Positions 3,525 to 27,627 of a DNA stretch of 29,285 nucleotides are shown here, in pieces. The position numbers were made by a program, and so were the translations under genes. Each line of letters starts with the position of its first letter. The stretch's first letter is position 1. This DNA is from a virus: positions 1-29,285 of IMG/VR virus record IMGVR_UViG_3300023242_000110; one strand, given 5' to 3'. Below the pieces are notes generated by a model that worked only from the letters and a program-made list of their open reading frames with translations, made no database searches and was not told where the DNA came from.

Positions 3525-3689
3525 GCTTGCCGCTTGACGCTTGGAGCTTGCCGCTTGGTCCTTGGGCCCTGGTCCATGGAGCTTGAGACTTTTAAAAAAG
3601 CGCTCGCAGCTGGCAACATAGGCGCGCGGTAGGCGCCTATGATCTTGTAAAAAATAGTGAGTTAGATCTCGATGTTTAATTCTTTTCAT
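3501..3689 (-). CDS. Small ORF ending in heptamer array C (62 aa)
   Basis: The ATG at 3689 overlaps the upstream gene's stop as TGATG, suggesting coupling. A TTG one codon earlier is the alternative start. Residues 1-35 (MKRIKHRDLTHYFLQ onward) could be a basic soluble protein. The remainder (KDQAASSKRQAAS) is the heptamer array translated. An 8-bp inverted repeat, ATAGGCGC/GCGCCTAT (3618-3640), sits inside the frame and is GC-rich relative to the genome. Function unknown; possibly a genuine short gene extended by repeat DNA. Confidence 0.4.
   Translation of the reverse strand: MKRIKHRDLTHYFLQDHRRLPRAYVASCERFFKSLKLHGPGPKDQAASSKRQAASLNSNTIK
3525..3585. repeat. Heptamer tandem array C (GCTTGNN)
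   Basis: GCTTG at 3525, 3532, 3539, 3546 and 3553, CCTTG at 3560, and GCTTG again at 3581. All are in the same 7-base phase; the gap 3565-3580 equals decayed units and contains GGTCCATGG. It begins directly after the element at 3507-3524. Confidence 0.8.
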
Positions 3690-7094: not shown

Positions 7095-8576
7095 ATGGAT
7101 TTAAATAACTTAGATATAAGCCAATTACCATCTGATGTTAGAAAAGAATTTAAACAATTAAGATTACTTCACACCGAAAAAAAGATTCAAAACAAGGCTA
7201 GAGAGGATTTTATGTCCTTTGTTAAGTGCGTATGGCCCGAGTTCATTGAAGGTGCGCACCATAGAGTAATTGCTAAAAAATTTAATGATCTTGCAACTGG
7301 TAAAATTAATAGATTAATCGTGAACATGCCTCCTAGGCATACTAAATCTGAATTTGCATCTTACCTACTTCCAGCGTGGATGGTGGGCCGTAATCCAAAA
7401 CTCAAGATCATTCAAGCAACCCACACAGGTGAACTTGCTGTAAGATTTGGTCGTAAAGCAAAAACCTTGATTGATAGTGAAGAATATTCTAAAATATTTG
7501 AAACAAGTTTAAGAGAAGACAGTCAAGCCGCTGGGAGGTGGGAAACAGCACAAGGCGGCGAGTATTTTGCTGCGGGTGTCGGCGGTGCAATCACTGGACG
7601 GGGTGCTGACTTATTAATCATTGATGATCCTCACTCAGAGCAAGATGCGATGTCAGCAAGTGCATTTGACAATGCTTATGAATGGTACACCTCTGGTCCA
7701 CGTCAAAGGATGCAGCCAGGTGGAAAAATTGTTTTAGTTATGACTCGATGGTCTAAAAAAGATTTAACAGGAATTTTATTAAAGAACCAAGGTAAGATTA
7801 AAGGGGATCAGTGGGACGTGGTCCAGTTTCCGGCAATCATGGACCACGGACCAAAGGAAGGAAAGCCCGTTTGGCCTGAATATTGGAAAATAGATGAGTT
7901 AGAGAAGGTTAAAGCAACCCTTCCGGTTGGAAAATGGAACGCGCAGTGGATGCAAAAGCCAACTAGTGAAGAAGGAGCGATTATAAAACGTGAATGGTGG
8001 CGAAAATGGGATCGAGACACGTTACCAGACATAAGTTATGTTATTCAAAGCTATGATACGGCTTTTTTAAAAAAAGAAACTGCCGATTTTAGTGCAATTA
8101 CTACTTGGGGAGTATTTTATCCTGAAATTGATGGTCCCGCTAATTTAATTTTAATGGATTGTCTAAAAGATCGATTTGAATTTCCAGAATTGCGTCGTGC
8201 AGCTCTTGAACAATATAAATATTGGAATCCTGACATGGTGGTCATCGAACAAAAAGCGTCTGGAACCCCTTTGACCCATGAATTTCGTCAAATGGATATT
8301 CCAGTTATGCCCTTTACTCCAAGCCGAGGAAATGATAAACATGTAAGAATAAATTCATGTGCACCTCTTTTTGAAGCGGGTTTAATCTGGGCGCCAGATA
8401 TGCGTTTTGCAGAAGAAGTGGTTGAGGAATGCGCGGCATTCCCACATGGAGATCATGATGACTTAGTAGATTCTATGACTATGGCTGTTATGCGATTTAG
8501 ACAGGGAGGTTTTATAACTCACCCGGAAGATTATGTAATTGAAACACAACCGCCTAGAAAAAGAGAGTATTATTAA
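7095..8576 (+). CDS. terL: Terminase large subunit
   Basis: 493 aa. This is the packaging motor: an ATPase that translocates DNA into the prohead and a nuclease that cuts concatemers. The Walker A variant PPRHTKS lies near residue 79, Walker B LLIIDDP near 173, and the coupling motif VMTRW near 216. The C-terminal RNase H-like nuclease has QSYDTAFLK near 317, VVIEQKASG near 382 and HDDLVDS near 453, giving the expected acidic triad. Length and order fit the Terminase_6-type family. There is no strong Shine-Dalgarno before the ATG. The stop overlaps the next start (TAATG), so the following giant gene is probably translated by coupling. Its small-subunit partner lies far upstream on the other strand. 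Confidence 0.95.
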   Translation: MDLNNLDISQLPSDVRKEFKQLRLLHTEKKIQNKAREDFMSFVKCVWPEFIEGAHHRVIAKKFNDLATGKINRLIVNMPPRHTKSEFASYLLPAWMVGRNPKLKIIQATHTGELAVRFGRKAKTLIDSEEYSKIFETSLREDSQAAGRWETAQGGEYFAAGVGGAITGRGADLLIIDDPHSEQDAMSASAFDNAYEWYTSGPRQRMQPGGKIVLVMTRWSKKDLTGILLKNQGKIKGDQWDVVQFPAIMDHGPKEGKPVWPEYWKIDELEKVKATLPVGKWNAQWMQKPTSEEGAIIKREWWRKWDRDTLPDISYVIQSYDTAFLKKETADFSAITTWGVFYPEIDGPANLILMDCLKDRFEFPELRRAALEQYKYWNPDMVVIEQKASGTPLTHEFRQMDIPVMPFTPSRGNDKHVRINSCAPLFEAGLIWAPDMRFAEEVVEECAAFPHGDHDDLVDSMTMAVMRFRQGGFITHPEDYVIETQPPRKREYY

Positions 8577-11500
8577 TGAGTAAAGCATTACAATTTATAC
8601 ACGCAGTAGCAAGAAAATTTCTTGCCAAAGAAGGGGAAGGAATTACCTCTATTGCCAATAGAATGCGGGCTGAAGCTAAAGCTAGTGAGATTGCAACAAC
8701 TTTTCAAGAATCAGGTTTACCTTTATCTAGATTGGATGAATTTATTAAAAGTGAGAACGATGTTGTTAAATATTTAAATATTATTGAGAGTAAAAAATCA
8801 GAAGCTACATCTAATAATATGATGGATATCGTTCGTAGAGGAGTCGATAAATTTAAAACTAAAAAATCAGCAGACGTATTAGATTTAAAAGGCAATAGAA
8901 TTAAAAACACAGACAATATCATGGGCGGGGAAGAAATTAAAATAAAAGATCCTGCATTATATGAAGATAGAGGTGGAAATATAATTCCTACACAATTTAG
9001 TGAAGCACCAGCATTTCCGTCTTATACGGCAAAAGAAACAGAAGAACAAATTCTAAAAAGATTAAAAAAACAAAACGAAGATTCAATTAACAGACTTAAG
9101 AATAAAAAAGATCCAGAAGATCCTCAAAAATTCTACCAAGGAGGCCAAGCACAAATAGAACCTGATCTATCAGACGTGGGCCATGGTTCGGATGCCCTGA
9201 TGGCAAGAAACATGCAACTCTCTCCAGGAAGTCAAGCTACAACATCAACAGGCTTAAATTATTTATTAGGTGAAGATAATGATACAACACGAGTGCCCTA
9301 CAAGAACGCCGGACCCGTGATTCTTCCAAAACCTAAACCAAAACCCAAAGCAGACCCTATGGTGGAGTTACAAAGAATTTATGATCTGTATCAAGAAGTA
9401 GCTCCGGGAGTAGCACAAGAAACTCAAAAATATCTGCAACAGGATTTTATAAATAAATTAAACGATGCTGGAATTTCACAAGAACAGTTTATGACTAATC
9501 GAATGCAAAACAATTTTGCAGAAGGTGGTAGAATAGGATATAATATGGGTTTATCTGTTTTAGGTTTTACACCAGAACACAATGCAGCGGTTTTTGATAT
9601 GGATAAAAATTTTACTGGAAGTCAATTTGATTATGCAGCTGCTTCAACAAAAGATATGGTTGATAGAGCATCAAGTCCATTAGGCTCTGTAGCAAGTGCT
9701 ATAGGTAATGTTGCTGGAAGACCTGCCTATGACTTTGTTGATGCTGCAAAAGAATATGGAAAAAAAGGTTATCAAGGAGAATTTGGTTTAAGTACTCAAG
9801 GAGCAATTGACTTTGGAAAAAATTTAGGAGCGTTTGGAAAAGAATTTTTAGATCAAAAACCTGGAACTATGATGGCAGGTGCACTTAAAGGAGGTATACA
9901 AAGTTTAGGTACAACATTAGGAGAAAGTATTTACGATAAACTTAATCCTACAGAAGATGAAGAAGATGAAATTAATATGAAAATGAGACATATCGATAAA
10001 AAAAAACAAGAAAAAATAAAACAACAAACAGAAATTTTTAAAGAAATAGAAGCAGCAGAGGTAGCTAAAGCAGCAGAAGCATCTCAAAGACAACAAACAA
10101 CTGCAATGGCTGCGCAAAATAAAGCAAACAACACAGGCGGATATCAATCTAGTTTTGGTCAAGATACAGGTTTTATGGGAGGATCAGGCACCGCTGCTGA
10201 GATGGGTTCTTTTGCAGAAGGTGGACCCGCAAGACAAAACTTTGCCATGGGCAAACGTGCGTTCTTAAAAATGCTAGGTGGAGTCGGCGCAGGAATCGCA
10301 GGCATTAAAACAGGACTCTTGGGACTCGGTAAAAGTGGTGGTAAGAAAGTTGCAACTGAAGTTGCAAAAGAAGCAGCAACCAGTGGAGCTCCTCCACACT
10401 TTTTAAAACTAGTAGCAAAAATTAAAGCATTAGGTGATGATGTAACTGAAACAGCTGCTTTAGCTGATAGACAAACTGTTAAGAGATATAAAGATTTTGA
10501 ATTAACAGAAGACATTGCAACTGGTAGAATTGAAATTCAAAGAGTTAAAGTTGCTGATGATATGGATTATTATGGTTCTCCTATAACGGAAGAAAGTTAT
10601 ATGGGTTATTCACCAGGAGAAGAAATATTTCAGGAAACGGCCAAAGGTAAAACTAAAATTACTAAGGCTCAACCAAAGTATGAAGAAGGCACTACTTATC
10701 TTAGAAATGACGGGCCTGAAACAGGTAGCGTCCTTGATGAGATGTCCGGTCTTTCCGATGATATATATGAAGAAGCAGGTGAAGCAGTACCAGAAGCTAT
10801 TAGAAAAGGAAAAGCAGATGGTGGCAGAATGGGTTATGCGGGTGGTAAAAAAGTAGTGCAAGGTTTAGCCGCTTTGATTAAGGGAAAATTTGGTAAGAAA
10901 GCAATTACAACTGCAGACAAACTTAAAACACCTCAGAAAACATTAGACAGAGATATGTTTAGTAAATTTAAAGATAGAAACCCAGATCCTAAAAGAGAGA
11001 TAACAGATGATGAGTTTCAAGATCTTATGGAAGACGTTGGTGATTTAGATGCTTATAATTTTGATGGTACTATTGGTTCTGCAAACAAAATAAGAAAAGA
11101 AGCAAAAGATTATCAAGATTACATGTATAAGCAATATAAAATGGGTAAACTAGATCCTGTAGCAGGCGATAAGTCTCCAGGTAGAAAAAGATTTTTAGAA
11201 CAAAAACTTGACGATATGGAAGGCAGCGGCGACAAAAGATTAATGAGCCCGGATGAAATAGAAGAACTATCTAGTTTTGATCTTGGTACTCAAATGGATC
11301 AAATGAAAAAGAAAACACTTCCTGAAATAGATGACAAACTTTTAAAAAATTACAACGATGAAATTAAAAGAGGCGTGGCTGAAATAATGGGTGATACCTC
11401 TCCTGAAGCTTTAAAAAAAAGTATAGAGATTGATAATCTTATGTTAAAATATCCAGGAATGGATAAGAACCTTGCAGATCAAATTGCATCTTCATCACCC

Positions 11501-11650
11501 AGAATGAAAGCTGATATGATCGCCATGGTAGAACAAACTTTTAAGATGAGTGAAAAAGGAATGAGTGGTGATGATATTATACAAACATTTAAAAACACAA
11601 CTAGAAGAAAACAAGCAACCGGGGGCCTTGCTTCTATGTTAGGAGAATAA
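8576..11650 (+). CDS. Very large motif-bearing virion protein candidate (1024 aa)
   Basis: Function unknown; position between terminase and portal suggests an internal or ejected virion protein. The N-terminal 130 residues are helical and charged. A Lys/Pro linker (PKPKPKPKAD) lies near 262. A Gly-Gly motif recurs: AEGGRIGY (315-322), AEGGP (547-551), ADGGRMGYAGG (747-757) and C-terminal TGGLASMLGE. Just after the second comes GKRAFLKMLGG (559-569) and a Gly/Ala/Ile stretch, a likely membrane-active or Tat-like segment. A Lys/Glu coiled coil lies near 465-510. Unusually long for this map position; the motif could mark processing sites. The start overlaps the terL stop, and the stop overlaps the next ATG. 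Confidence 0.85.
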   Translation: MSKALQFIHAVARKFLAKEGEGITSIANRMRAEAKASEIATTFQESGLPLSRLDEFIKSENDVVKYLNIIESKKSEATSNNMMDIVRRGVDKFKTKKSADVLDLKGNRIKNTDNIMGGEEIKIKDPALYEDRGGNIIPTQFSEAPAFPSYTAKETEEQILKRLKKQNEDSINRLKNKKDPEDPQKFYQGGQAQIEPDLSDVGHGSDALMARNMQLSPGSQATTSTGLNYLLGEDNDTTRVPYKNAGPVILPKPKPKPKADPMVELQRIYDLYQEVAPGVAQETQKYLQQDFINKLNDAGISQEQFMTNRMQNNFAEGGRIGYNMGLSVLGFTPEHNAAVFDMDKNFTGSQFDYAAASTKDMVDRASSPLGSVASAIGNVAGRPAYDFVDAAKEYGKKGYQGEFGLSTQGAIDFGKNLGAFGKEFLDQKPGTMMAGALKGGIQSLGTTLGESIYDKLNPTEDEEDEINMKMRHIDKKKQEKIKQQTEIFKEIEAAEVAKAAEASQRQQTTAMAAQNKANNTGGYQSSFGQDTGFMGGSGTAAEMGSFAEGGPARQNFAMGKRAFLKMLGGVGAGIAGIKTGLLGLGKSGGKKVATEVAKEAATSGAPPHFLKLVAKIKALGDDVTETAALADRQTVKRYKDFELTEDIATGRIEIQRVKVADDMDYYGSPITEESYMGYSPGEEIFQETAKGKTKITKAQPKYEEGTTYLRNDGPETGSVLDEMSGLSDDIYEEAGEAVPEAIRKGKADGGRMGYAGGKKVVQGLAALIKGKFGKKAITTADKLKTPQKTLDRDMFSKFKDRNPDPKREITDDEFQDLMEDVGDLDAYNFDGTIGSANKIRKEAKDYQDYMYKQYKMGKLDPVAGDKSPGRKRFLEQKLDDMEGSGDKRLMSPDEIEELSSFDLGTQMDQMKKKTLPEIDDKLLKNYNDEIKRGVAEIMGDTSPEALKKSIEIDNLMLKYPGMDKNLADQIASSSPRMKADMIAMVEQTFKMSEKGMSGDDIIQTFKNTTRRKQATGGLASMLGE

Positions 11651-13878
11651 TGGCTAACGAGTACTTTGCATCAAAGAGTTGGTTAACTAAATACGCTCAA
11701 GCTGACGACAGCAGAAGTGCGTGGCAAGACTATGTTAAAGAGGTCGAGGACCGTGATTCACGATCCATGGTCCAGGAACCACGGAACATGTACAACCAAG
11801 GTCAGTTAGTACGAAACACGGTTGATGGATCACGGCCCGGGTATGCGGGTAAACAAGGCAATGTTAATAACCATCCTGTAAAACCATTAAACAAAGATCA
11901 GAAAAAAATTTATGATATGATGTTAAAAGAAGAGCTTCCTACTAATAGGCCATCAGTGTCTAAGCAATTAGTAGAACGTTTTAACAAACCATGGGAAAAA
12001 TTAGACAACACTGCAAGAGCAAATTTTATTAATCAAACTTATCCAAGATATAAAAAATTACTAGAAAGAGCTGGTGGTAAAATAAGCAGAAATCAATTAG
12101 CAAAGATATTAAGTGAAAAATTAGATAAACCTATAAGTTTAGGACAAATACACGGATATGGGGGAACTAGAGCCGGAGGCAGAAAAAAAACAGAATTTAG
12201 TAAAACTTTAGATGAAGTTTTAGATGTAACAAACGTTACACCAAAAAATCCAATGTATAAAATTCCAACGGAAGCAGATATTAAAAAACTAAAACCCTTA
12301 TTAGATATAACTCCTGCTAATTCTTTAAAAAATAGTACTGCAGATAACATTATAAAATTAAATAAAAAATATACAGGTATGTATAAAAGTGGAAAACTTC
12401 CTAGCCTTGAAACAGTCTTAAAAGATTTTCCTAACATGACTTCTACTCAAGCAAGTAATGCAACAATACAATTATCTCAAATTTACAGTGGTAATAAATT
12501 TAAATTATTTAGTAATTTAGATCCAAAAATAAAAAAAGCAGTAGAAAATATTAAAGTAGATAAAAAACTTGGAGATAAAGTATTTAAACTAATAGGAGAT
12601 TCTCAGTTTAATGACTACCGTCGTTCTATGTATCGTATTTCTTTAGGTATGATTGATGAAAAATTAGGTAATAAAAAAGGAACGTTTGAATCATTAAAAA
12701 CTCAAGCACGTCAAATTTTAAAAGATAATAAAATACCTATATATTCACCGGAAAAGAAAAATGCGGCAGGTAAAATTATACAAAAGGCAACGCAAGGTTT
12801 TAATATTAATGAAATTGCCGGAGTATCGGGAAGTGCTAAATCTAAAGCAGCAGAGTTTTCTCAATTTATAGATGTTATGGAAGGAAATCTAAATCAAAAA
12901 ACTATGGCAAATTTTCAATCTAAACTTTCAAGTGCAAGACAATTAATAGAAAATAATCCTTCAATGTTATCTAGTGAATCTAAAAAAATTAATAAACTAG
13001 CTCGTAATTTAGAGAATGAATATAGTATAGAATTACCAAGATTAAGAGACCCTGATGCCACTAAATATTTTTCACCCAAAAGATTAAAAGAATTAAATAC
13101 ACAAGGGTTAGATATTGTTAAAGCTGCAGAACGTGCAGGCTACACAATTCAAATGCCAAAAAGTGCTCAAACAATAAATGAGTTTATAGATAAACCTGAC
13201 CAAGTCCGTTTAGCAAAAATAGGTTGCCCTGGTAAAGCAATGGGAGGGCGTATTGGATTTAGTGAAGGTCAAAATCTAGTAGCGTGTGTTACACGAGGTG
13301 TAGAAAAATTACAAGGGGATCCAGGTAAACTCTCACCAGGAGACAAGGCAAATTTACGTGCGCTTACAAAATCGGGTAAAGCTTTAAACTTTTTAAAAGG
13401 AGTATTAGGCCCTGTTGCAATATTAGGTGAAGTTGTACTTGAAGGTGGAATTGCTGCGAATAAAACTTTAAATGAAGGTGTGCCTTTTAAACAAGCATTA
13501 GGTGAATCTTATTTAAACTATGCGCTTGGTCCAAAATTAAAAATAGATGTTGAAGCAGAACGTGAAAAAGAATTTGCAAAAGGTGAAGATTATGCAATGG
13601 CAGAACGGGGTAGAAGAATGATGATTCCACAAAGTGCTACAGCTGACAAACAAAGATTAAAAAAAAGATATGAGCAAATGGACAAAGATGTACCAACTTA
13701 TTCCTCACAACAAATTGATAAAATGCTAATAGATTCTAATATAACTCGTGAAGAAATGGGAATGGACGACAATCAAATTAATAAATATATAAAAAACCAA
13801 AGAGTCGCCGATGCAGGAGGAGTATCTAATTTAGCCCAAGGTGGATTAGCTGATTTAATGAAAAAGTATTATGACTAA
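11650..13878 (+). CDS. Large Lys-rich motif-bearing virion protein candidate (742 aa)
   Basis: Sister-like to the preceding protein in style: VDGSRPGYAG (58-67), AMGGRIGF (530-537) and a C-terminal AQGGLADLMKKYYD. Residues 70-500 are very Lys/Asn rich and helical, suggesting DNA-associated or internal virion protein. A segment with YGGTRAGGRKK near 165-180 is strongly basic. A hydrophobic stretch (FLKGVLGPVAILGEVVLEGG) near 579-598, after the GGRIGF motif, may insert in a membrane. No enzymatic motif is recognised. The start overlaps the previous stop (TAATG). Role in DNA ejection is inferred from position and composition only. Confidence 0.85.
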   Translation: MANEYFASKSWLTKYAQADDSRSAWQDYVKEVEDRDSRSMVQEPRNMYNQGQLVRNTVDGSRPGYAGKQGNVNNHPVKPLNKDQKKIYDMMLKEELPTNRPSVSKQLVERFNKPWEKLDNTARANFINQTYPRYKKLLERAGGKISRNQLAKILSEKLDKPISLGQIHGYGGTRAGGRKKTEFSKTLDEVLDVTNVTPKNPMYKIPTEADIKKLKPLLDITPANSLKNSTADNIIKLNKKYTGMYKSGKLPSLETVLKDFPNMTSTQASNATIQLSQIYSGNKFKLFSNLDPKIKKAVENIKVDKKLGDKVFKLIGDSQFNDYRRSMYRISLGMIDEKLGNKKGTFESLKTQARQILKDNKIPIYSPEKKNAAGKIIQKATQGFNINEIAGVSGSAKSKAAEFSQFIDVMEGNLNQKTMANFQSKLSSARQLIENNPSMLSSESKKINKLARNLENEYSIELPRLRDPDATKYFSPKRLKELNTQGLDIVKAAERAGYTIQMPKSAQTINEFIDKPDQVRLAKIGCPGKAMGGRIGFSEGQNLVACVTRGVEKLQGDPGKLSPGDKANLRALTKSGKALNFLKGVLGPVAILGEVVLEGGIAANKTLNEGVPFKQALGESYLNYALGPKLKIDVEAEREKEFAKGEDYAMAERGRRMMIPQSATADKQRLKKRYEQMDKDVPTYSSQQIDKMLIDSNITREEMGMDDNQINKYIKNQRVADAGGVSNLAQGGLADLMKKYYD

Positions 13879-14023
13879 AGACAATCCAACACTTGTAAAA
13901 AACATGAAACATGTTAAATGGAAAGAGATCCCTCCTTTAAAAGGACCCAATTCTCGAGGGTTGATTAAAGAGAAGAAACAAGATAAACCAATACAGGATA
14001 AAAAATATGGCAGATATAGATAA
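13871..14023 (+). CDS. Tiny basic protein overlapping two genes (50 aa)
   Basis: MTKDNPTLVKNMKHVKWKEI followed by PPLKGPNSRGLIKEKKQ. Lys/Pro rich with a PPLKGPNSRG motif. It begins inside the last codons of the 742-aa gene and ends 17 bases into the portal gene, both in other frames. The overlap at both ends and the coherent basic composition favour a real gene over chance. It contains the portal ribosome site (ACCAATACAGGA) within its coding sequence. Function unknown. Confidence 0.55.
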   Translation: MTKDNPTLVKNMKHVKWKEIPPLKGPNSRGLIKEKKQDKPIQDKKYGRYR

Positions 14024-16496
14024 AACCCTTCCTAATACTAGACCTGAAGATGAGCTTATAAAAGAGCAAATGGAAGAGGTTGATGTTGCAGATGAATTAG
14101 GTAAAGGTCCAATAGAAATTACAGATGAAGAAGATGGTGGAGCAACTATCGACTTTGATCCAAATGCAGTTCAAATGCCAGATTCAGGAGATCCGTTTGC
14201 AAATTTAAATGATCTTCTTCCAGAAGATACTACTGATCTTATTGGTAGTGAATTACAAAGTGATTACGCAGAATATAAAACTTCTCGTGCAGATTGGGAA
14301 AGAACTTACATTACTGGATTGGATTTATTAGGATTTAAATACGATAATAGAACAGAACCTTTCCAAGGAGCAAGTGGTGCAACTCACCCTGTTCTTGCAG
14401 AAGCGGTTACACAGTTTCAAGCATTAGCTTATAAAGAATTACTACCTTCAGATGGACCGGTTAGAACGATGGTCATGGGTTCAGCAACCCCTCCAAAAGA
14501 AGCACAAGCTCAAAGAGTTAAAGATTTTATGAACTATCAATTGATGGATCAAATGAAAGAATATGAACCTGAGTTTGACCAAATGTTATTCTATCTTCCT
14601 TTAGCAGGATCTACATTTAAAAAAGTTTATTATGATGATTTGCTTGGAAGAGCCGTATCTAAATTTATTCCAGCAGATGATTTAGTAGTCCCTTATACAG
14701 CGACTTCATTAGATGATGCGGAAGCAGTTATTCATGTTATTAAAATATCTGAAAATGATTTAAGAAAACAACAAGTAGCTGGATTCTATTCTGATATAGA
14801 ATTATCAAAACCACAAGATTCAAATTCTAATGAATTAAAAGAAAAAGAGAGAGAAATAGAAGGAGTTACAAAATCAAATAAAGCAGAGTCAATGTACACT
14901 TTAATTGAGTGTCATGTTAATTTAGATTTAGAAGGTTTTGAAGACGTGGGGCCCGATGGTGAGCCTACTGGAATAAAACTACCTTACATTGTAACAATCG
15001 AAGAAAGTAGTAGAAAAGTTTTATCAATTAGAAGAAACTTTAAACCTGAAGACCCTAAGAAAAATAAGATTCAATATTTTGTTCATTTTAAATTTTTACC
15101 AGGATTAGGTTTTTATGGTTTAGGATTAATTCATATGATTGGTGGATTAAGCAGAACTGCAACTGCAGCGCTTCGTCAGTTATTAGATGCAGGAACGTTA
15201 TCAAATTTACCAGCAGGATTTAAACAAAGAGGTGTCAGAGTTCAAGATGACGCTACAGCGATTCAACCCGGAGAATTTAAAGATGTAGATACTCCAGGCG
15301 GTAATCTAAAAGATGCTTTCGTATTCTTACCCTACAAAGAACCTTCACAGACTTTATTGCAGTTGATGGGTATTGTAGTTCAAGCAGGACAAAGATTCGC
15401 ATCAATTGCTGACATGCAAGTTGGTGATGGGAACCAACAAGCAGCTGTTGGTACAACTGTAGCTCTTTTAGAACGTGGTTCAAGAGTGATGTCAGCAATC
15501 CATAAAAGGTTGTACGCTTCACTTAAGAATGAATTTAAATTACTTTCAAATATCTTTAAAACTTATTTACCTCCTGAATATCCTTATGATGTTCCAGGGG
15601 CATCGAGAAATGTTAAAGTTACAGATTTTGATGACAAGGTAGATATTCTACCGGTAGCAGATCCTAACATATTCTCAATGAGTCAAAGAATATCAATGGC
15701 ACAAACACAATTACAATTAGCTCAATCTAATCCACAAATGCATAATATGTATATGGCTTATAGAAATATGTATTCAGCAATTGGTGTAAAGGATATAGAT
15801 TCAATCTTACCTGCGCCACCACAAAATCAACCGAAAGATCCGGCGTTAGAACATATTGATGCAATGGGAGCAAAACCTTTTCAAGCGTTTCCAGGTCAAG
15901 ATCACAGAGCACACGTTACAGCACACTTAAGTTTTATGGCTTCTAATTTTGTTAGAAATAATCCGAGTATCACTGCAGCGTTAGAGAAAAACATTTTAGA
16001 ACATATTTCAATCATGGCCCAGGAGCAAGTACAACTAGAGTTCCCACAAGAAATGCAAATGTTACCACAAATGCAACAAGCGGCTGTTCAGAATCCTCAA
16101 GCTCAACAACAGATGCAACAAATCTCACAAAAGATTGAAGCAAGAAAAGCTATTCTAATTGCTGAGATGACTGAAGACTTTATGAAGGAAGAAAAAGCTA
16201 TCACAGATCAATTTGATCATGATCCATTATTAAAACTTAAAGAAAGAGAAGTTGATCTTAAAGCAATGGATGCAGAAAGAAAACAAAAAGAAGATGAAGC
16301 TAGAATTAATTTAGATAAAACTAAATTTTTACAAGGTCAACAACTAGATGAAGCAAAACTACAACAGAATGAGGATTTAGCTAATTTAAGAGCGGATACA
16401 GCTATGGCTAAGTCAGAATTGTCTGCAGAAGTAAAATTAACCTCAGATGCTATGAAAGCGAAGGATGTTAATCGCTTGAAAGGGCCGAGAAATTAG
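14007..16496 (+). CDS. Portal protein
   Basis: 829 aa. Portals form the dodecameric ring at one capsid vertex through which DNA is packaged and ejected. The acidic N-terminus leads into YAEYKTSRADWERTYITGLD and GFKYDNRTEPFQGASGATHP, then long helical wing/stem regions. The mid part contains FLPGLGFYGLGLIHMIGG and RTATAALRQLLDAGTLSNL, typical of large podovirus-type portals. The C-terminal 230 residues are Gln/Met-rich and then a charged coiled coil, consistent with an extended barrel domain. Length suits P22-type portals rather than the shorter HK97 type. Ribosome leader ACCAATACAGGA precedes the ATG. Family assignment is by pattern and synteny with terL, scaffold and capsid. Confidence 0.9.
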   Translation: MADIDKTLPNTRPEDELIKEQMEEVDVADELGKGPIEITDEEDGGATIDFDPNAVQMPDSGDPFANLNDLLPEDTTDLIGSELQSDYAEYKTSRADWERTYITGLDLLGFKYDNRTEPFQGASGATHPVLAEAVTQFQALAYKELLPSDGPVRTMVMGSATPPKEAQAQRVKDFMNYQLMDQMKEYEPEFDQMLFYLPLAGSTFKKVYYDDLLGRAVSKFIPADDLVVPYTATSLDDAEAVIHVIKISENDLRKQQVAGFYSDIELSKPQDSNSNELKEKEREIEGVTKSNKAESMYTLIECHVNLDLEGFEDVGPDGEPTGIKLPYIVTIEESSRKVLSIRRNFKPEDPKKNKIQYFVHFKFLPGLGFYGLGLIHMIGGLSRTATAALRQLLDAGTLSNLPAGFKQRGVRVQDDATAIQPGEFKDVDTPGGNLKDAFVFLPYKEPSQTLLQLMGIVVQAGQRFASIADMQVGDGNQQAAVGTTVALLERGSRVMSAIHKRLYASLKNEFKLLSNIFKTYLPPEYPYDVPGASRNVKVTDFDDKVDILPVADPNIFSMSQRISMAQTQLQLAQSNPQMHNMYMAYRNMYSAIGVKDIDSILPAPPQNQPKDPALEHIDAMGAKPFQAFPGQDHRAHVTAHLSFMASNFVRNNPSITAALEKNILEHISIMAQEQVQLEFPQEMQMLPQMQQAAVQNPQAQQQMQQISQKIEARKAILIAEMTEDFMKEEKAITDQFDHDPLLKLKEREVDLKAMDAERKQKEDEARINLDKTKFLQGQQLDEAKLQQNEDLANLRADTAMAKSELSAEVKLTSDAMKAKDVNRLKGPRN

Positions 16497-17125: not shown

Positions 17126-17437
17126 ATGTCAGGATATTTTAATATAGGTAAAAACTTAGCTTCAGGTGTAGGTCAAGCTATCAATAAAGTTAAAACAAAA
17201 ATTAATAAAACAAAATTAGATAAAGCAAACAGCAATTTAGATATTGCTAAACAAAAATTAAAAGCTGGGAAAGCAAAATTAGATCAAACTGTTTTTGAAA
17301 TAAAAAATAAGATGCCTATTACTTTTAAAAGTAAAAAAGGAAAATCAGAATCAAATACAGAATCATATAAAAGAATACAAAAAGATAATACTAAAGTAAT
17401 TAAAGGCATGCTTGACAAAGCAGCTGGAAAAAAATAA
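17126..17437 (+). CDS. Lys-rich helical small protein (103 aa)
   Basis: AAAGGAAAA ribosome site before the ATG. MSGYFNIGKNLASGVGQAIN, then a repetitive Lys/Asn-rich amphipathic helix (residues about 20-60), then basic sequence to KKAAGKK-like end. Strongly cationic with no Cys, so it may bind DNA or membrane surfaces. It heads the run of tiny basic proteins between portal and scaffold. Confidence 0.7.
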   Translation: MSGYFNIGKNLASGVGQAINKVKTKINKTKLDKANSNLDIAKQKLKAGKAKLDQTVFEIKNKMPITFKSKKGKSESNTESYKRIQKDNTKVIKGMLDKAAGKK

Positions 17438-17447
17438 GGAGAAAAAT

Positions 17448-17801
17448 ATGGCTGGTCAAGAAAAATCAAAAGAACCTTTAAGTCCGTCTAAAAGAAAAAA
17501 ATTAAGAAAACAAAAAGAGGATCAAGAGACAAAACAAAATTTAACACAAGACTATGCTTATACAGGTATTCCTGGAGCAAAAGCTACAGCAAAAGGTGTT
17601 AAATATAGTCAAGATGATGTTCCTACAAGACTCTCTAAAAGCGACGAAGGTAATAAAAAAGTAGAAACCCTTAAATATAAACCTTCAAAAAGAACTCTTC
17701 CACCTGGAAAATCAATTTTAATGAAAGCCAAAGGTGGCAGAGCCGGTTACAAACACGGTGGCGCAGCTAAACGTGGCCGAGGTTGTGAACTCAAGTCTTA
17801 A
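17448..17801 (+). CDS. Basic protein with GGRAGY motif (117 aa)
   Basis: The start is taken at 17448, where AAGGAGAA lies seven bases upstream; a frame from 17412 overlaps the previous gene. The N-terminus is very basic (SKRKKLRKQK). The centre contains YAYTGIPGAKATAKGVKYSQ. The tail has MKAKGGRAGYKHGG (92-105), the same Gly-Gly-Arg-x-Gly-Tyr motif as the two giant proteins upstream. The shared motif suggests the same maturation or binding step. Function unknown. The stop overlaps the next ATG. Confidence 0.75.
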   Translation: MAGQEKSKEPLSPSKRKKLRKQKEDQETKQNLTQDYAYTGIPGAKATAKGVKYSQDDVPTRLSKSDEGNKKVETLKYKPSKRTLPPGKSILMKAKGGRAGYKHGGAAKRGRGCELKS

Positions 17802-18606: not shown

Positions 18607-18843
18607 ATGGAACCAGAACAAGTAGTAACTAAATTAAGAAGAGCATTAGACAATAGAATAAATCAATTATCAATATCTGTCACTTCTGGTGGAGTTGACA
18701 AGATGGAGACTTACAAGTATATAATAGGACAAATAAACGCATTGGAATCAGTGCGTCAGGAAATCATTACCCTGCTAACCGATAAGGAACAAAATGAAAC
18801 AAGCGGAACAGTCATCGACCTCAAAAGAGGTCCCAGAAGTTAA
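18607..18843 (+). CDS. Small helical hypothetical protein (78 aa)
   Basis: MEPEQVVTKLRRALDNRINQ, then KYIIGQINALESVRQEIITL. Two helices with regular hydrophobic spacing; possibly a small adaptor or head-associated protein. The C-terminal part overlaps the first 50 bases of the co-chaperonin gene in another frame. No known family. Confidence 0.7.
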   Translation: MEPEQVVTKLRRALDNRINQLSISVTSGGVDKMETYKYIIGQINALESVRQEIITLLTDKEQNETSGTVIDLKRGPRS

Positions 18844-19234
18844 GTCAGCACTTTTAGACAAATACAAAGAAGAACCTAAAAAAGAAATTACCAAAGAAAC
18901 CACTAAGCTCCCCATGCCTACCGGCTGGAGAATGTTAATTTTACCTTTCAGAATGAAAGAGAAAACTGACGGCGGAATCCTATTAGGAAATGAAACTATC
19001 GACAGACAACAAGTTGCCTCACAATGCGGAAACGTTATTGCGATGGGTGATGCATGTTATGTTGATAAAGAAAGATATCCCAATGGTCCGTGGTGCAAGG
19101 TTGGTGATTGGGTAGTCTTTGCACGTTATGCAGGATCACGTATTGAAATTGAAGGAGGCGAAGTTCGTCTTTTAAATGAAGATGAAATACTTGCAACCGT
19201 ACAGGATCCAACAGATATCCTGCACAAATATTAA
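18794..19234 (+). CDS. GroES-like co-chaperonin
   Basis: 146 aa. The region from residue about 42 matches chaperonin-10: PTGWRMLILPFR, mobile loop KTDGGILLGNE with the hydrophobic tripeptide I62-L-L that in GroES (IVL) docks on GroEL, GNVIAMGD, CKVGDWVVFARYAGSRIEI and LLNEDEILATV. About 40 acidic/Lys residues precede the core. The roof hairpin is replaced by ACYVDKERYPNGPWC. Phage co-chaperonins such as T4 gp31 adapt GroEL to fold the capsid protein; this gene lies directly before scaffold and capsid genes. It starts 50 bases inside the previous gene. Host GroEL is the likely partner, inferred. Confidence 0.85.
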   Translation: MKQAEQSSTSKEVPEVKSALLDKYKEEPKKEITKETTKLPMPTGWRMLILPFRMKEKTDGGILLGNETIDRQQVASQCGNVIAMGDACYVDKERYPNGPWCKVGDWVVFARYAGSRIEIEGGEVRLLNEDEILATVQDPTDILHKY

Positions 19235-19255: not shown

Positions 19256-20194
19256 ATGCCAGAAGAAGAGAAAAAAACTGTCGATTTAGATACATCCGGC
19301 CCAGAGGTCGATGTATCGATTGAAGAGACAAAAGAGGAAGCAGTAATTGAAACTGCACCCGAAAAAGAAACAGGAGCCACGGAACAAGAAACAGTAGTAG
19401 AAGAAAAAACGGATACAGGAACACAAGACGAAGCATTAGAAGATTACGGTAAAGGCGTTCAAGCTCGTATTGCGAAATTAACTCGTAAGATGAGAGAGGC
19501 GGAGCGAAGAGAAGCTTCTGCTCTTGAATATGCTAAAGCTGTAGAAACAAAAAGACAACTTGATAATGAGCGATTTAAAAAAGTAGATTTAGATTATACT
19601 AAAAAGTTTGAAAATAATCTAAAAACTGGAATGGAGTCTGCGCAAAAAGAACTTGCAATGGCTATTGAAGCCGGTGACGCTGTTGCTCAAGTTGAAGCTA
19701 ATAAAAAAGTTGCTACTCTTGCATTTGAAAACGCAAGAATGGAACAACAAAAACAGAACGTTGAACAGGAAGTTCCTGTTGAATTATCTGACGGCGGTAG
19801 ATTACCAAGACAGACACCGAGATCATTACCCGAAGCTGATCCTGAAGCTGAAGATTGGGCTAGTAGAAATACATGGTTTGGAAAAGATAGAGCCATGACT
19901 TTTACTGCGTTCGAAATTCATAAGGATTTAGTGGATAAAGAAGGCTTTGATCCTAAAGGTGAAGAATATTATGTAGAAATAGACAAGAGAATTAGAGTTG
20001 ACTTTCCTCATAAATTTGGTAAGACTGATACAACTACGTCTAAACCCGTTCAGTCGGTGGCTTCTGCGAATAGAAGTGTAAAACAAGGACGCAAAACTGT
20101 GAGACTCACATCATCACAGGTAGCAATAGCTAAAAAATTAGGTGTGCCACTAGAAGAGTATGCAAAACAATTAAAACTCACGGAAGGAGCATAA
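19256..20194 (+). CDS. Scaffolding protein
   Basis: 312 aa. Scaffolds guide capsid assembly and are lost before packaging. The first 65 residues are highly acidic (Glu/Thr), followed by a long charged helix (about 65-170) with coiled-coil pattern, then a Pro/Gly linker and a basic C-terminus (VKQGRKTVRLTSSQVAIAK) that could contact capsid. Length and position just before the capsid genes fit podovirus-type scaffolds. AAAGGAG precedes the ATG. No protease motif is seen. Confidence in role rests on composition and synteny. Confidence 0.8.
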   Translation: MPEEEKKTVDLDTSGPEVDVSIEETKEEAVIETAPEKETGATEQETVVEEKTDTGTQDEALEDYGKGVQARIAKLTRKMREAERREASALEYAKAVETKRQLDNERFKKVDLDYTKKFENNLKTGMESAQKELAMAIEAGDAVAQVEANKKVATLAFENARMEQQKQNVEQEVPVELSDGGRLPRQTPRSLPEADPEAEDWASRNTWFGKDRAMTFTAFEIHKDLVDKEGFDPKGEEYYVEIDKRIRVDFPHKFGKTDTTTSKPVQSVASANRSVKQGRKTVRLTSSQVAIAKKLGVPLEEYAKQLKLTEGA

Positions 20195-20198
20195 GCAT

Positions 20199-20660
20199 AT
20201 GAAAAAAGAAGAAGAACAAAAAAAACCTTTACGTGCGGCTAATATTCGGTCAAAGACTGAAAGACCAAAAGAGTATAAGCCCCCATCATCTTTAGATGCA
20301 CCACCAGCGCCTGACGGATTTAGGCACAGATGGATAAGAGCAGAGTCAATGGGTTTCAATGATACCAAAAGTATTCACGGTAGATTGAGATCTGGTTATG
20401 AGTTAGTGAGAGCTGACGAATATGATTCTGAATCCTACCCTGTTGTCATGGACGGAAAATACGCTGGAGTCATTGGAGTAGGTGGCCTTCTCCTGGCAAG
20501 GATACCGGAAGAACTCGCACAAAGCCGTGTTGCCTATCAGCAAAGACAAACTGAAGGACAAAACGAAGCTTTAGAAAACGACTTACTGAAGGATCAGGAT
20601 AAAAGAATGCCCATGAAGTATGAGCATTCTAGCAAAAACTTCGGTGGTACAAAGAAATAA
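20199..20660 (+). CDS. Capsid-assembly-associated hypothetical protein (153 aa)
   Basis: GGAGCATAAGCAT leader before the ATG, only five bases after the scaffold stop. Lys/Pro-rich N-terminus, then a compact domain FRHRWIRAESMGFNDTKSIH, RLRSGYELVRADEYDSESYP and VIGVGGLLLARIPEE, then a charged tail with Gln-rich helix. The pattern recurs in phages next to scaffold and capsid genes, perhaps a head-completion or accessory head protein. No enzymatic motif. Confidence 0.75.
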   Translation: MKKEEEQKKPLRAANIRSKTERPKEYKPPSSLDAPPAPDGFRHRWIRAESMGFNDTKSIHGRLRSGYELVRADEYDSESYPVVMDGKYAGVIGVGGLLLARIPEELAQSRVAYQQRQTEGQNEALENDLLKDQDKRMPMKYEHSSKNFGGTKK

Positions 20661-20735: not shown

Positions 20736-21323
20736 ATGGCAAATAGAAACACCGTAGGATTTGGTCTTATAGCTCAAGGCACTGTTGGTTCAACTGACGC
20801 TGCTGGCGGTCAAGGCAAATACTACATAGATGCTGGTTATGCTGTTGATTTATTCCAAGGTTCTGTAGTACAGAGCAAAGTTGGATATATTAAAACTGCA
20901 CAAGCGGCTATAACAGATAGCTCTATAGGAATTTTGAATGGCATTTTTTATAATGCATCAACGACTCAAAAACCTACATGGGCGAACTGGTACAATCAGC
21001 CGATTACACCGGCTAATAGTGAAGACGTTACGGCTTTCGTAATTGACAACCCTCTACAACTGTTTACAGTTTGTTTAGACACGGCAGCAGCACAAGCAGA
21101 ATATGGTAAAACATACGGTATGACTGTAACTGCAGCAGGATCAGAAACTTCTGGTCAGTCAAGCTCGAAGCTATTACTAGCGGGAGTATCGGACACAGCA
21201 AATCAATGGCGTTTACTAAGATCGGCAGAAGATCCTGAAAATAATGAAAATGCGGCGAATAGAACCGTTGTCGTTTGTCAGAATCTTAACCAGTACTTAG
21301 ATAACTCTGTAACATGGCAATAA
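20736..21323 (+). CDS. Head decoration-like protein (195 aa)
   Basis: AAGGAGAAAATAACT leader before the ATG. Ala/Gly/Thr-rich, no Lys-rich repeats: MANRNTVGFGLIAQGTVGST, KYYIDAGYAVDLFQGSVVQS, then a beta-rich body. Placed directly before the capsid gene and after the hairpin, matching decoration or capsid-stabilising proteins. Not assigned to a named family. A minor structural role is the alternative. Confidence 0.75.
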   Translation: MANRNTVGFGLIAQGTVGSTDAAGGQGKYYIDAGYAVDLFQGSVVQSKVGYIKTAQAAITDSSIGILNGIFYNASTTQKPTWANWYNQPITPANSEDVTAFVIDNPLQLFTVCLDTAAAQAEYGKTYGMTVTAAGSETSGQSSSKLLLAGVSDTANQWRLLRSAEDPENNENAANRTVVVCQNLNQYLDNSVTWQ

Positions 21324-21338
21324 TAGGAGCATAATAAC

Positions 21339-22259
21339 ATGGCAATATCACGAGCACAGCTAGTTAAAGAACTAGAACCAGGTTTGAATGCACTATTCGG
21401 CCTGGAATACAAAAAGTATGAAAATCAGCACGCTGAAATTTATACGACGGAATCATCAGACAGAGCTTTCGAAGAGGAAGTAATGTTATCTGGTTTCGCT
21501 AACGCAGATGTAAAAGCAGAAGGTCAAGGCGTATCATACGATGATGCACAAGAGACTTACACTGCAAGATACACTATGGAAACGATCGCGCTAGCTTTCG
21601 CTATCACAGAAGAAGCAATAGAGGACAACCTTTATGACAGACTTTCTTCTAGATACACAAAAGCACTAGCAAGATCTATGTCTAACGCAAAAGAAGTTAA
21701 AGGCGCTAACCCTTTAAATAATGGTCTACCAGCAATAACTGGTACATCAACATTTAAATCAGGTGATGGCAAAAACTTGTTTAGTACTTCTCACCCAACT
21801 ATCGCGGGTACAGTATCAAACACTTTAGCAACTCAAGCGGACTTAAACGAAACTTCATTAGAACAAGCATTGATTGATATTGCTGCTATGACTGATGAAA
21901 GAGGTTTGAGAATAGCTGCAAAAGGAGTTAAAATGATAATTCCTTCTGCAAATCAGTTCAATGCTGAAAGACTTATGAAGTCTCAAGGCAGAACTCAAAC
22001 AGCTGATAATGACATCAATGCAATCAACTCAATGGGTATGATTCCTCAAGGTTACAGAGTGAACAACTTCCTAACTGACGCTGATTCTTGGTACATTACA
22101 ACAGACGTTCCAAATGGTATGAAGATGTTCTCAAGAACTCCATTGACTACTTCAATGGAAGGAGACTTCGATACAGGCAATGTTAGATACAAAGCTAGAG
22201 AAAGATACGCTTTTGGCGTTTCTGACTTTAGAGGTATCTACGGTTGTGAAGGTGCGTAA
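21339..22259 (+). CDS. Major capsid protein
   Basis: 306 aa. Forms the icosahedral shell; HK97-fold expected. The N-terminal arm (MAISRAQLVKELEPGLNALF, then EYKKYENQHAEIYTTESSD) is followed by YTMETIALAFAITEEAIEDN, the P-domain-like helix, then DGKNLFSTSHPTIAG, ERGLRIAAKGVKMIIPSANQ and a terminal KARERYAFGVSDFRGIYG. Codons are better optimised and less Lys-rich than neighbours, as usual for an abundant protein. GGAGCATAATAAC precedes the ATG. It is followed by a clear terminator at 22273-22301, which would set its level relative to downstream tail genes. Homology is by recalled pattern and synteny. Confidence 0.9.
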   Translation: MAISRAQLVKELEPGLNALFGLEYKKYENQHAEIYTTESSDRAFEEEVMLSGFANADVKAEGQGVSYDDAQETYTARYTMETIALAFAITEEAIEDNLYDRLSSRYTKALARSMSNAKEVKGANPLNNGLPAITGTSTFKSGDGKNLFSTSHPTIAGTVSNTLATQADLNETSLEQALIDIAAMTDERGLRIAAKGVKMIIPSANQFNAERLMKSQGRTQTADNDINAINSMGMIPQGYRVNNFLTDADSWYITTDVPNGMKMFSRTPLTTSMEGDFDTGNVRYKARERYAFGVSDFRGIYGCEGA

Positions 22260-26637: not shown

Positions 26638-27627
26638 ATGGCTAATACTTGGGGACAATCCGGAACAACCTGGGGACAAAATCAATGGGGCGATCAAGCC
26701 GATGTTGATGTAATTCTTACAGCCCCTACACAATTATCAACAACACTCGGTACAGTTACACCCTTCAATGAATTAGGTTGGGGCTCTGATACATATGGAA
26801 CAGAAAACTGGGGCGAGTCAGGTCTTACAGTTTTAATTAGTGGAGTATCAGCAACTTCTGCTGTGGGTGCAATTGCGCCGGCAGATGTAATGGGACTGAC
26901 TGGACTTTCAGCAACGTCTTCAGTTGGAATAATTAATGTTGGACTAGGAATTCCATTAACAGGACTTTCAGCAACTTCTGCTGTTGGTGCAATTATTATT
27001 GGAGAAGGAATTCCATTAACAGGACTTTCAGCAACTTCTGCTGTGGGTGCAATTGCGCCGGCAGATGTAATGGGATTAACAGGACTTGCATTAACAACTG
27101 CTGTAGGATCTTTATCATTTGTATCGAGTCCAACATTTACTTTAACAGGTCAAGCTGCAACAACTGCAGTAGGTTCAATTATTGTTGGAGTGGGAATTCC
27201 ATTAACAGGACTTGCATTAACGACTGCAGTAGGTTCTCCAGTTGCTAGAGGAGATTATACAGAATCATTAACAGGACTTTCAGCATTAGGTGCTGTAGGG
27301 GGTGTAACTGTTACATCTAATCCAACAGTTCAACCTGCCGGACTATCCTTAACTTCTGCAGTGGGAACATTAGCACCAGCTGATGTAATGGGATTAACTG
27401 GACTATCTTTAACGTCAACAGTTGGATTAATTTCTCCTGCTGATGTAATAGGCTTGACTGGAGTATCTGCAACTGCTAATGTAGGAAATGTAGCACCTTT
27501 AGGATATGGAGATGTTACAGGAACACAAAGTGCTAGTTATAGTAACATATCAGCATCACAAAGTGCTAGTTATAGTAATGTAACTGCAGCACAAAGTGCT
27601 AGTTATACGGACGTTGATAGTGTATAA
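26638..27627 (+). CDS. Repeat-rich appendage protein (329 aa)
   Basis: The start has WGQSGTTWGQNQWGD and GWGSDTYGTENWGES, Trp-Gly motifs common in marine phage tail proteins. Then come about eleven degenerate units built on LTGLSATSAVG, spaced 20-30 residues, some preceded by GIPLTGL, others by PADVMGL. The end has three 11-residue units (QSASYSNISAS-like). Stacked repeats suggest a fibrous beta structure such as a tail appendage. No enzymatic motif. Repeat number may vary between related genomes by recombination. Confidence 0.8.
   Translation: MANTWGQSGTTWGQNQWGDQADVDVILTAPTQLSTTLGTVTPFNELGWGSDTYGTENWGESGLTVLISGVSATSAVGAIAPADVMGLTGLSATSSVGIINVGLGIPLTGLSATSAVGAIIIGEGIPLTGLSATSAVGAIAPADVMGLTGLALTTAVGSLSFVSSPTFTLTGQAATTAVGSIIVGVGIPLTGLALTTAVGSPVARGDYTESLTGLSALGAVGGVTVTSNPTVQPAGLSLTSAVGTLAPADVMGLTGLSLTSTVGLISPADVIGLTGVSATANVGNVAPLGYGDVTGTQSASYSNISASQSASYSNVTAAQSASYTDVDSV
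26843..27610 (+). repeat. DNA-level repeats inside the appendage gene
   Basis: GGAATTCCATTAACAGGACT-type blocks recur near 26948, 27008 and 27196; GCAATTGCGCCGGCAGATGT recurs near 26870 and 27050. A 33-base unit, coding the 11-aa repeat, occurs three times at about 27525-27610. Near-identity of some units points to recent duplication. Confidence 0.75.

Follow-up and report, generated by a model that had tools for sequence, protein, structure and literature searches.

A GroES-like co-chaperonin with a lengthened mobile-loop stretch, encoded ahead of the capsid gene in a marine pelagiphage

Introduction

GroES is the lid of the bacterial protein-folding chamber, and its loop carrying a hydrophobic tripeptide is the part that docks on GroEL. 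Among phage counterparts T4 gp31 is the best described, and in T4 the case for a special lid is made from how large the capsid protein is. The window, the whole stretch of DNA analyzed here (29,285 bases, virus record IMGVR_UViG_3300023242_000110), contains an open reading frame that a sequence-only reading had taken for a phage GroES-like co-chaperonin beside scaffold and capsid genes. The locus raises two questions: whether the frame encodes a co-chaperonin, and which proteins such a lid would serve. The frame is:

18794–19234, plus strand: Cpn10/GroES-like co-chaperonin, 146 aa (PF00166, phrog_3188, predicted fold)

Results

The open reading frame encodes a Cpn10/GroES-family protein

A ribosome-site-like AAGGA precedes the ATG of the 146-residue frame. 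The Pfam Cpn10 model (PF00166) matches its product at 44 bits against a cut-off of 21.1 (E = 2.2e-11), over model positions 4–92 of 93, and phrog_3188 (co-chaperonin GroES) matches at 7e-22; the PDB sequence matches are to Cpn20 and Cpn10 chains (best E = 2.3e-14), and the matches to the NCBIfam GroES models fall far under their curated cut-offs. The predicted model has a confident core, mostly with pLDDT near 90. When it was compared with known structures in Foldseek, all 34 rows at E = 0.001 or better were Cpn10-type chains (best E = 8.6e-8), and rows 35 and 36 were T4 gp31. Alignment with VIA-align gave Z = 10.4 for Cpn10, 9.2 for gp31 in complex with GroEL and 8.0 for a second gp31 row, with the first unrelated protein, an oxidoreductase with a GroES-like barrel, at 7.9. 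Because such oxidoreductases come next, the function of the protein is not given by its fold alone.

The core of the protein is also constrained: the median dN/dS of the Cpn10 core is 0.10 (range 0.05–0.17) in comparisons of the window with 68 relatives, which have common ancestry and so are non-independent. These were drawn from loci L001–L080, the others being duplicates, too close, or impossible to align without gaps. The 18 codons preceding the core vary more (mean pN 0.217 versus 0.076). As the core is under purifying selection, the frame is more than a chance ORF; it is real and encodes a member of the Cpn10/GroES family. The identification made from the sequence alone is thus upheld by sequence, profile and predicted fold, and that fold, far from being unlike Cpn10, matches both GroES and T4 gp31.

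The closest named relative is the co-chaperone GroES of phage HTVC027P (QGZ17836.1), with 63.7% identity over the full length. Homologs with the same downstream gene order to the capsid gene are present in the Pelagibacter phages HTVC027P and HTVC023P (QGZ17665.1) and in phages 023Pt_psg01 and DSL-LC04, all of which share with the window protein the Trp-Cys pair and the 17-residue loop stretch described below; they differ from it in sequence divergence and in the length of the N-terminal extension. Planktothrix phage Pag-Yong1 likewise has an annotated GroES, with an unchanged gene order as far as the capsid gene, and BFVD entries under the name 'Co-chaperonin GroES [uncultured virus]', A0A221S4I5 among them, which are predicted models only, reach 52% identity at best (rmsd 1.7). 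In a 2022 study of 82 genomes, co-chaperonin GroES is listed among the 13 core genes of HTVC023P-type pelagiphages (PMC9599517), and a figure in a paper on Roseobacter CHAB-I-5 phages marks GroES (PMC10149686). The gene is expected in this phage type, is already annotated in relatives and will be no surprise to specialists.

The mobile-loop stretch is lengthened and the roof stretch is not

Four segments of the protein require separate description:

18794–18916, plus strand: N-terminal extension, residues 1–41 (low pLDDT; variable length; first 50 nt overlap the upstream gene)
18977–19027, plus strand: docking half of the mobile loop, residues 62–78, with the tripeptide ILL (by alignment; exceeds the bacterial GroES examined by 4 residues)
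19049–19102, plus strand: roof stretch, residues 86–103, with Trp100-Cys101 (near-normal length by alignment; coil in the models)
19208–19231, plus strand: C-terminal tail PTDILHKY, residues 139–146 (kept in close relatives; extends past the point where E. coli GroES stops)

The mobile-loop tripeptide ILL is present at residues 62–64, as had been claimed, with I-L-L following K-T-D-G-G (KTDGGILL), and 244 of 245 distinct relatives have hydrophobic residues at all three positions (each set of identical frames counted as one, and 6 of 341 loci had no usable match). Loop and roof were measured in an alignment of 13 phages, namely the window and 12 references, with E. coli GroES. Between G61 and G79 the window has 17 residues against 13 in E. 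coli, a count that comes from this one alignment, and every one of the 13 phages has 17 or 18. Bacterial GroES proteins, in contrast, have 13 in all 27 cases parsed by script and in five more read by eye (n = 32, comprising the best 30 alphaproteobacterial loci by match and two others, with the divergent copies at the end of the list left out). A helix predicted within the loop of the window model (residues 66–75) was not reproduced in the model of a DSL-type relative (L255), in which the mobile loop is a low-confidence hairpin, and it was not retained as a feature.

The roof had been thought to be replaced by a longer, Cys-containing loop. Its length does not support this: the window protein has 18 residues between G85 and G104, E. 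coli GroES has 17 and the remaining phages have 9 to 21, and the alignment count places the extra length in the mobile-loop stretch (17 versus 13). What stands is that the sequence is unlike GroES and contains cysteines, Cys88 and Cys101. In both predicted models, of the window protein and of the DSL-type relative, the roof stretch is coil with no beta hairpin. Trp100-Cys101 is invariant across the 245 distinct relatives, 200 of which differ in the core, although this set is biased toward the motif by search patterns that, in several cases, included it. The pair was rejected as a family-wide signature, as only 8 of the 13 aligned phages carry it and the larger set is search-biased.

Comparison with bacterial GroES (E. 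coli, alphaproteobacteria and one SAR86 bin) shows a common Cpn10 core and hydrophobic tripeptide, set against a loop stretch of 13 rather than 17 residues, the absence of Trp-Cys from all 32 sequences examined and, in E. coli, the lack of an N-terminal extension. The likeness to T4 gp31 (1g31, 2cgt) lies in the predicted fold and in a mobile loop longer than that of GroES; the gp31 loop has 22 residues versus 16 in GroES, and gp31 has no roof loops (PMC6318259), whereas the window protein keeps a roof stretch of normal length.

The terminal segments vary between relatives

About 40 acidic and Lys residues had been noted in front of the core, and the composition agrees, the 38 N-terminal residues including 9 Lys, 7 Glu and 1 Asp. 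In the window model pLDDT is below 50 at residues 1–17 and 26–35, and in that of the DSL-type relative the extension is partly helical with pLDDT near 80. The number of residues before Pro42 is 41 in the window and ranges from 4 to 51 over the 13 aligned phages. The extension was considered as a defining domain and set aside, being only 4 to 8 residues in 3 of these 13 and of low confidence in the window model. The C-terminal tail, which was missed in the sequence-only reading, is strongly conserved among the distinct relatives (P139 in 245 of 245, H144 in 242 of 245); it is absent from some distant members and so was not accepted as a conserved feature of the family.

The gene sits among head genes

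The genes on which the neighborhood analysis relies, all on the plus strand, are:

7095–8576, plus strand: terminase large subunit (PF17289 1.1e-7, phrog_38 1e-107)
14007–16496, plus strand: portal protein, SU10 type (PF23899 6e-17, phrog_1216)
18607–18843, plus strand: small ORF, 78 aa, phrog_32603, directly upstream and overlapping the co-chaperonin gene by 50 nt
19256–20194, plus strand: putative scaffold (by position), matching phrog_28737 of unknown function
20199–20660, plus strand: phrog_36003 protein, function unknown, encoded between the putative scaffold and the capsid protein
20736–21323, plus strand: phrog_37556 protein, function unknown, also encoded between the putative scaffold and the capsid protein
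21339–22259, plus strand: major capsid protein, phrog_371/Phage_capsid_4 type, 306 aa, 33.6 kDa (PF25209 1.3e-12, phrog_371 7e-26)

The placement before scaffold and capsid genes thus holds in full for the capsid gene, which lies downstream; 'scaffold' is a positional assignment, for the frame matches phrog_28737 strongly and its Pfam match is below the cut-off. In the T4 genome, gene 31 is separate from the cluster of head genes.

The same arrangement recurs in IMG/VR, among 320 loci that were retrieved with four related GroES sequences as queries and are consequently relatives rather than independent cases. The putative scaffold directly follows the GroES-like ORF in all 279 loci with more than 1,000 bases downstream, a capsid match lies 1,985–2,267 bases downstream in all 187 with more than 3,100 bases, and a match to the small ORF is directly upstream in all 296 with more than 350 bases before the ORF. 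Frames of 55–79 aa hold the place of this small ORF in 11 reference phages, a Y....G pattern is common to 9 of 12 aligned small upstream proteins, and in Alcaligenes phage QDWS535 an unannotated frame may occupy the corresponding position.

Several other features of the window were recorded. A match to the small terminase subunit (phrog_51) lies at 994–1539 on the minus strand, apart from the large subunit and on the opposite strand to it. Short GGRxGY/GGRxGF motifs recur in three ORFs with no PHROG match, two between terminase and portal (8576–11650 and 11650–13878) and one after the portal (17412–17801). Degenerate 7/21-bp repeats of the AGCTTGA type occupy 2469–2719 and 3527–3591, with nine 23-nt family copies in two clusters, and tandem repeats of 60 bp (26848–27236) and 33 bp (27517–27607) lie within ORF 26638–27627, which also has no PHROG match.

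Co-occurrence with one capsid type

A search with the capsid protein matched 22 of 50,697 phage records at 1e-5, and 21 of the 22 have a Cpn10 profile match; the other, the 10.8-kb record MT836833, gave no Cpn10 profile match. In the 18 records with a capsid E value of 4e-50 or better, Cpn10 lies 1.8–2.3 kb before the capsid gene (3.1 kb in MW202675; the distance in MinM2, whose record starts between the two genes, assumes a circular genome), and a scaffold-sized ORF directly follows it. These 18 amount to about 12 lineages, as they include near-copies (four Caulobacter phages, three records of 65,014 bases and two Roseobacter phages), and their hosts are as varied as SAR11 and cyanobacteria. 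Where a portal gene is annotated in the stretch, it lies upstream, often with other ORFs intervening; within the stretch inspected none is annotated in MW202675 or the two Roseobacter phages. Three of the 22 records, BK063670, MW202601 and MW202604, depart from this in having Cpn10 elsewhere than near the capsid gene; in MW202601 it is close to a single-stranded DNA-binding protein gene, and MW202604 has it at the same coordinates. The first of these belongs to an archaeal tailed virus whose capsid protein is a distant relative, and it has Cpn10 near the terminase (BK063670.1, 42826–43182; L390).

Across the 13 aligned phages the divergence of GroES parallels that of the capsid protein (distance correlation r = 0.85, a value reached by none of 5000 permutations). 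Any two co-inherited genes would nevertheless be expected to show linkage and matching distances, and these therefore do not mark the capsid protein as the client. The literature searched, with most subscription papers outside its coverage, gave no description of the capsid-type linkage or of the loop length, which is weak evidence that neither is in print.

Distribution and the partner chaperonin

No Cpn60 match was found in the window or in any of the 22 phage records that the capsid search had returned, so the partner chaperonin would come from the host. With E. coli GroES as the tblastn query at least 89 of the 50,697 phage records were hit, some of them pieces of bacterial chromosome, and with the window protein at least 28; both are lower bounds because tblastn misses distant Cpn10. 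Of 178 candidate stretches in cellular genomes, three were confirmed as loci related to the window gene, and the two of these found in one SAR86 metagenome bin are perhaps misplaced phage contigs. The SAR86 bin REDSEA-S09_B4 contains a typical GroES, and long frames on its other contigs give four weaker matches to Cpn10 (L087/L339, L088/L337, L340 and L341); two were checked and both are of the phage type, so that they either belong to misbinned phages or hint at SAR86 hosts. Five plasmid records have Cpn10 matches, at less than 60% identity. A tree built from 30 Cpn10 rows requires two changes of the phage label and has long branches, for which reason it does not separate a single phage origin from several.

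Discussion

The explanation that best fits these observations, and that we consider probable, is that the phage Cpn10 forms a GroES-like ring that caps host GroEL during infection through its tripeptide and in this way promotes efficient folding of at least one virion protein, the major capsid protein being the likeliest. The subunits would assemble into the ring as those of GroES do; the ring would dock on the host chaperonin by way of the hydrophobic tripeptide of the mobile loop; and the lidded GroEL would then fold proteins of the head cluster. From the position of the gene and the T4 precedent we infer that the capsid protein would be the natural client. The longer mobile loop could, by conjecture, change the affinity for GroEL and the dwell time on it rather than the size of the cage.

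The T4 precedent, invoked in the sequence-only reading, carries over in part. It extends to the lengthened loop, and it fails for the roof, which is kept here, and for the rationale of capsid size. The reason proposed for a special lid in T4 is a capsid protein of about 56 kDa, which slightly exceeds what the normal cage can hold (PMC6318259); the window capsid protein is 33.6 kDa, well below T4 gp23, and the size argument consequently does not apply.

This small capsid protein is one of the points in favor of the main rival, in which the protein is a general helper lid that replaces or tops up scarce host GroES for many phage and host proteins, and its place in the head cluster gives only late, high expression. 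Such a role would also accommodate the three records in which Cpn10 is away from the capsid gene, and it accords with a study of Southern Ocean viruses, most of which encode at least one GroEL or GroES analogue; the study treats these analogues as an adaptation to cold water (PMC8407431). Against it, 18 of the 22 records keep the gene 1.8–3.1 kb before the capsid gene, which is steadier than general help would need, though co-inheritance could suffice to explain it. We regard this general role as rather unlikely.

More improbable still is reuse of the Cpn10 fold as a head-assembly or virion component that acts without GroEL, for example as a ring at the scaffold or portal. The tight place among head genes, the additional N- and C-terminal segments and the divergent roof would suit such a component, but the loop and its hydrophobic tripeptide are retained, and in the model of the DSL-type relative the loop has the low confidence that a mobile loop would have. 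That the protein is instead a decoy or inhibitor of the host chaperonin, which blocks host GroES and does nothing for the folding of phage proteins, is very improbable: a divergent lid could compete with host GroES, a point that bears on the idea only indirectly, whereas the gene is conserved beside head genes and under purifying selection, and gp31, the known phage co-chaperonin, supports folding (PMC6318259).

Beyond the favored reading of a lid for host GroEL that serves virion proteins, a more specific proposal is put forward tentatively, as one that may well prove wrong. The lineage with the phrog_371-type capsid may depend on a co-chaperonin of its own, encoded directly before the putative scaffold, whose loop, longer by 4–5 residues, would alter the time for which GroEL holds the capsid subunit and not the size of the cage, with the small upstream ORF as a possible partner; this would apply to phages of SAR11, Roseobacter, Caulobacter, Alcaligenes and cyanobacteria.

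What is distinctive here is the combination of a lengthened loop with a steady position beside one capsid type. Marine phages with a much smaller capsid protein than that of T4 still carry the lid, and carry it in a steady place, and they thereby allow a clean test of whether the purpose of a phage lid is size, speed or freedom from reliance on host GroES.
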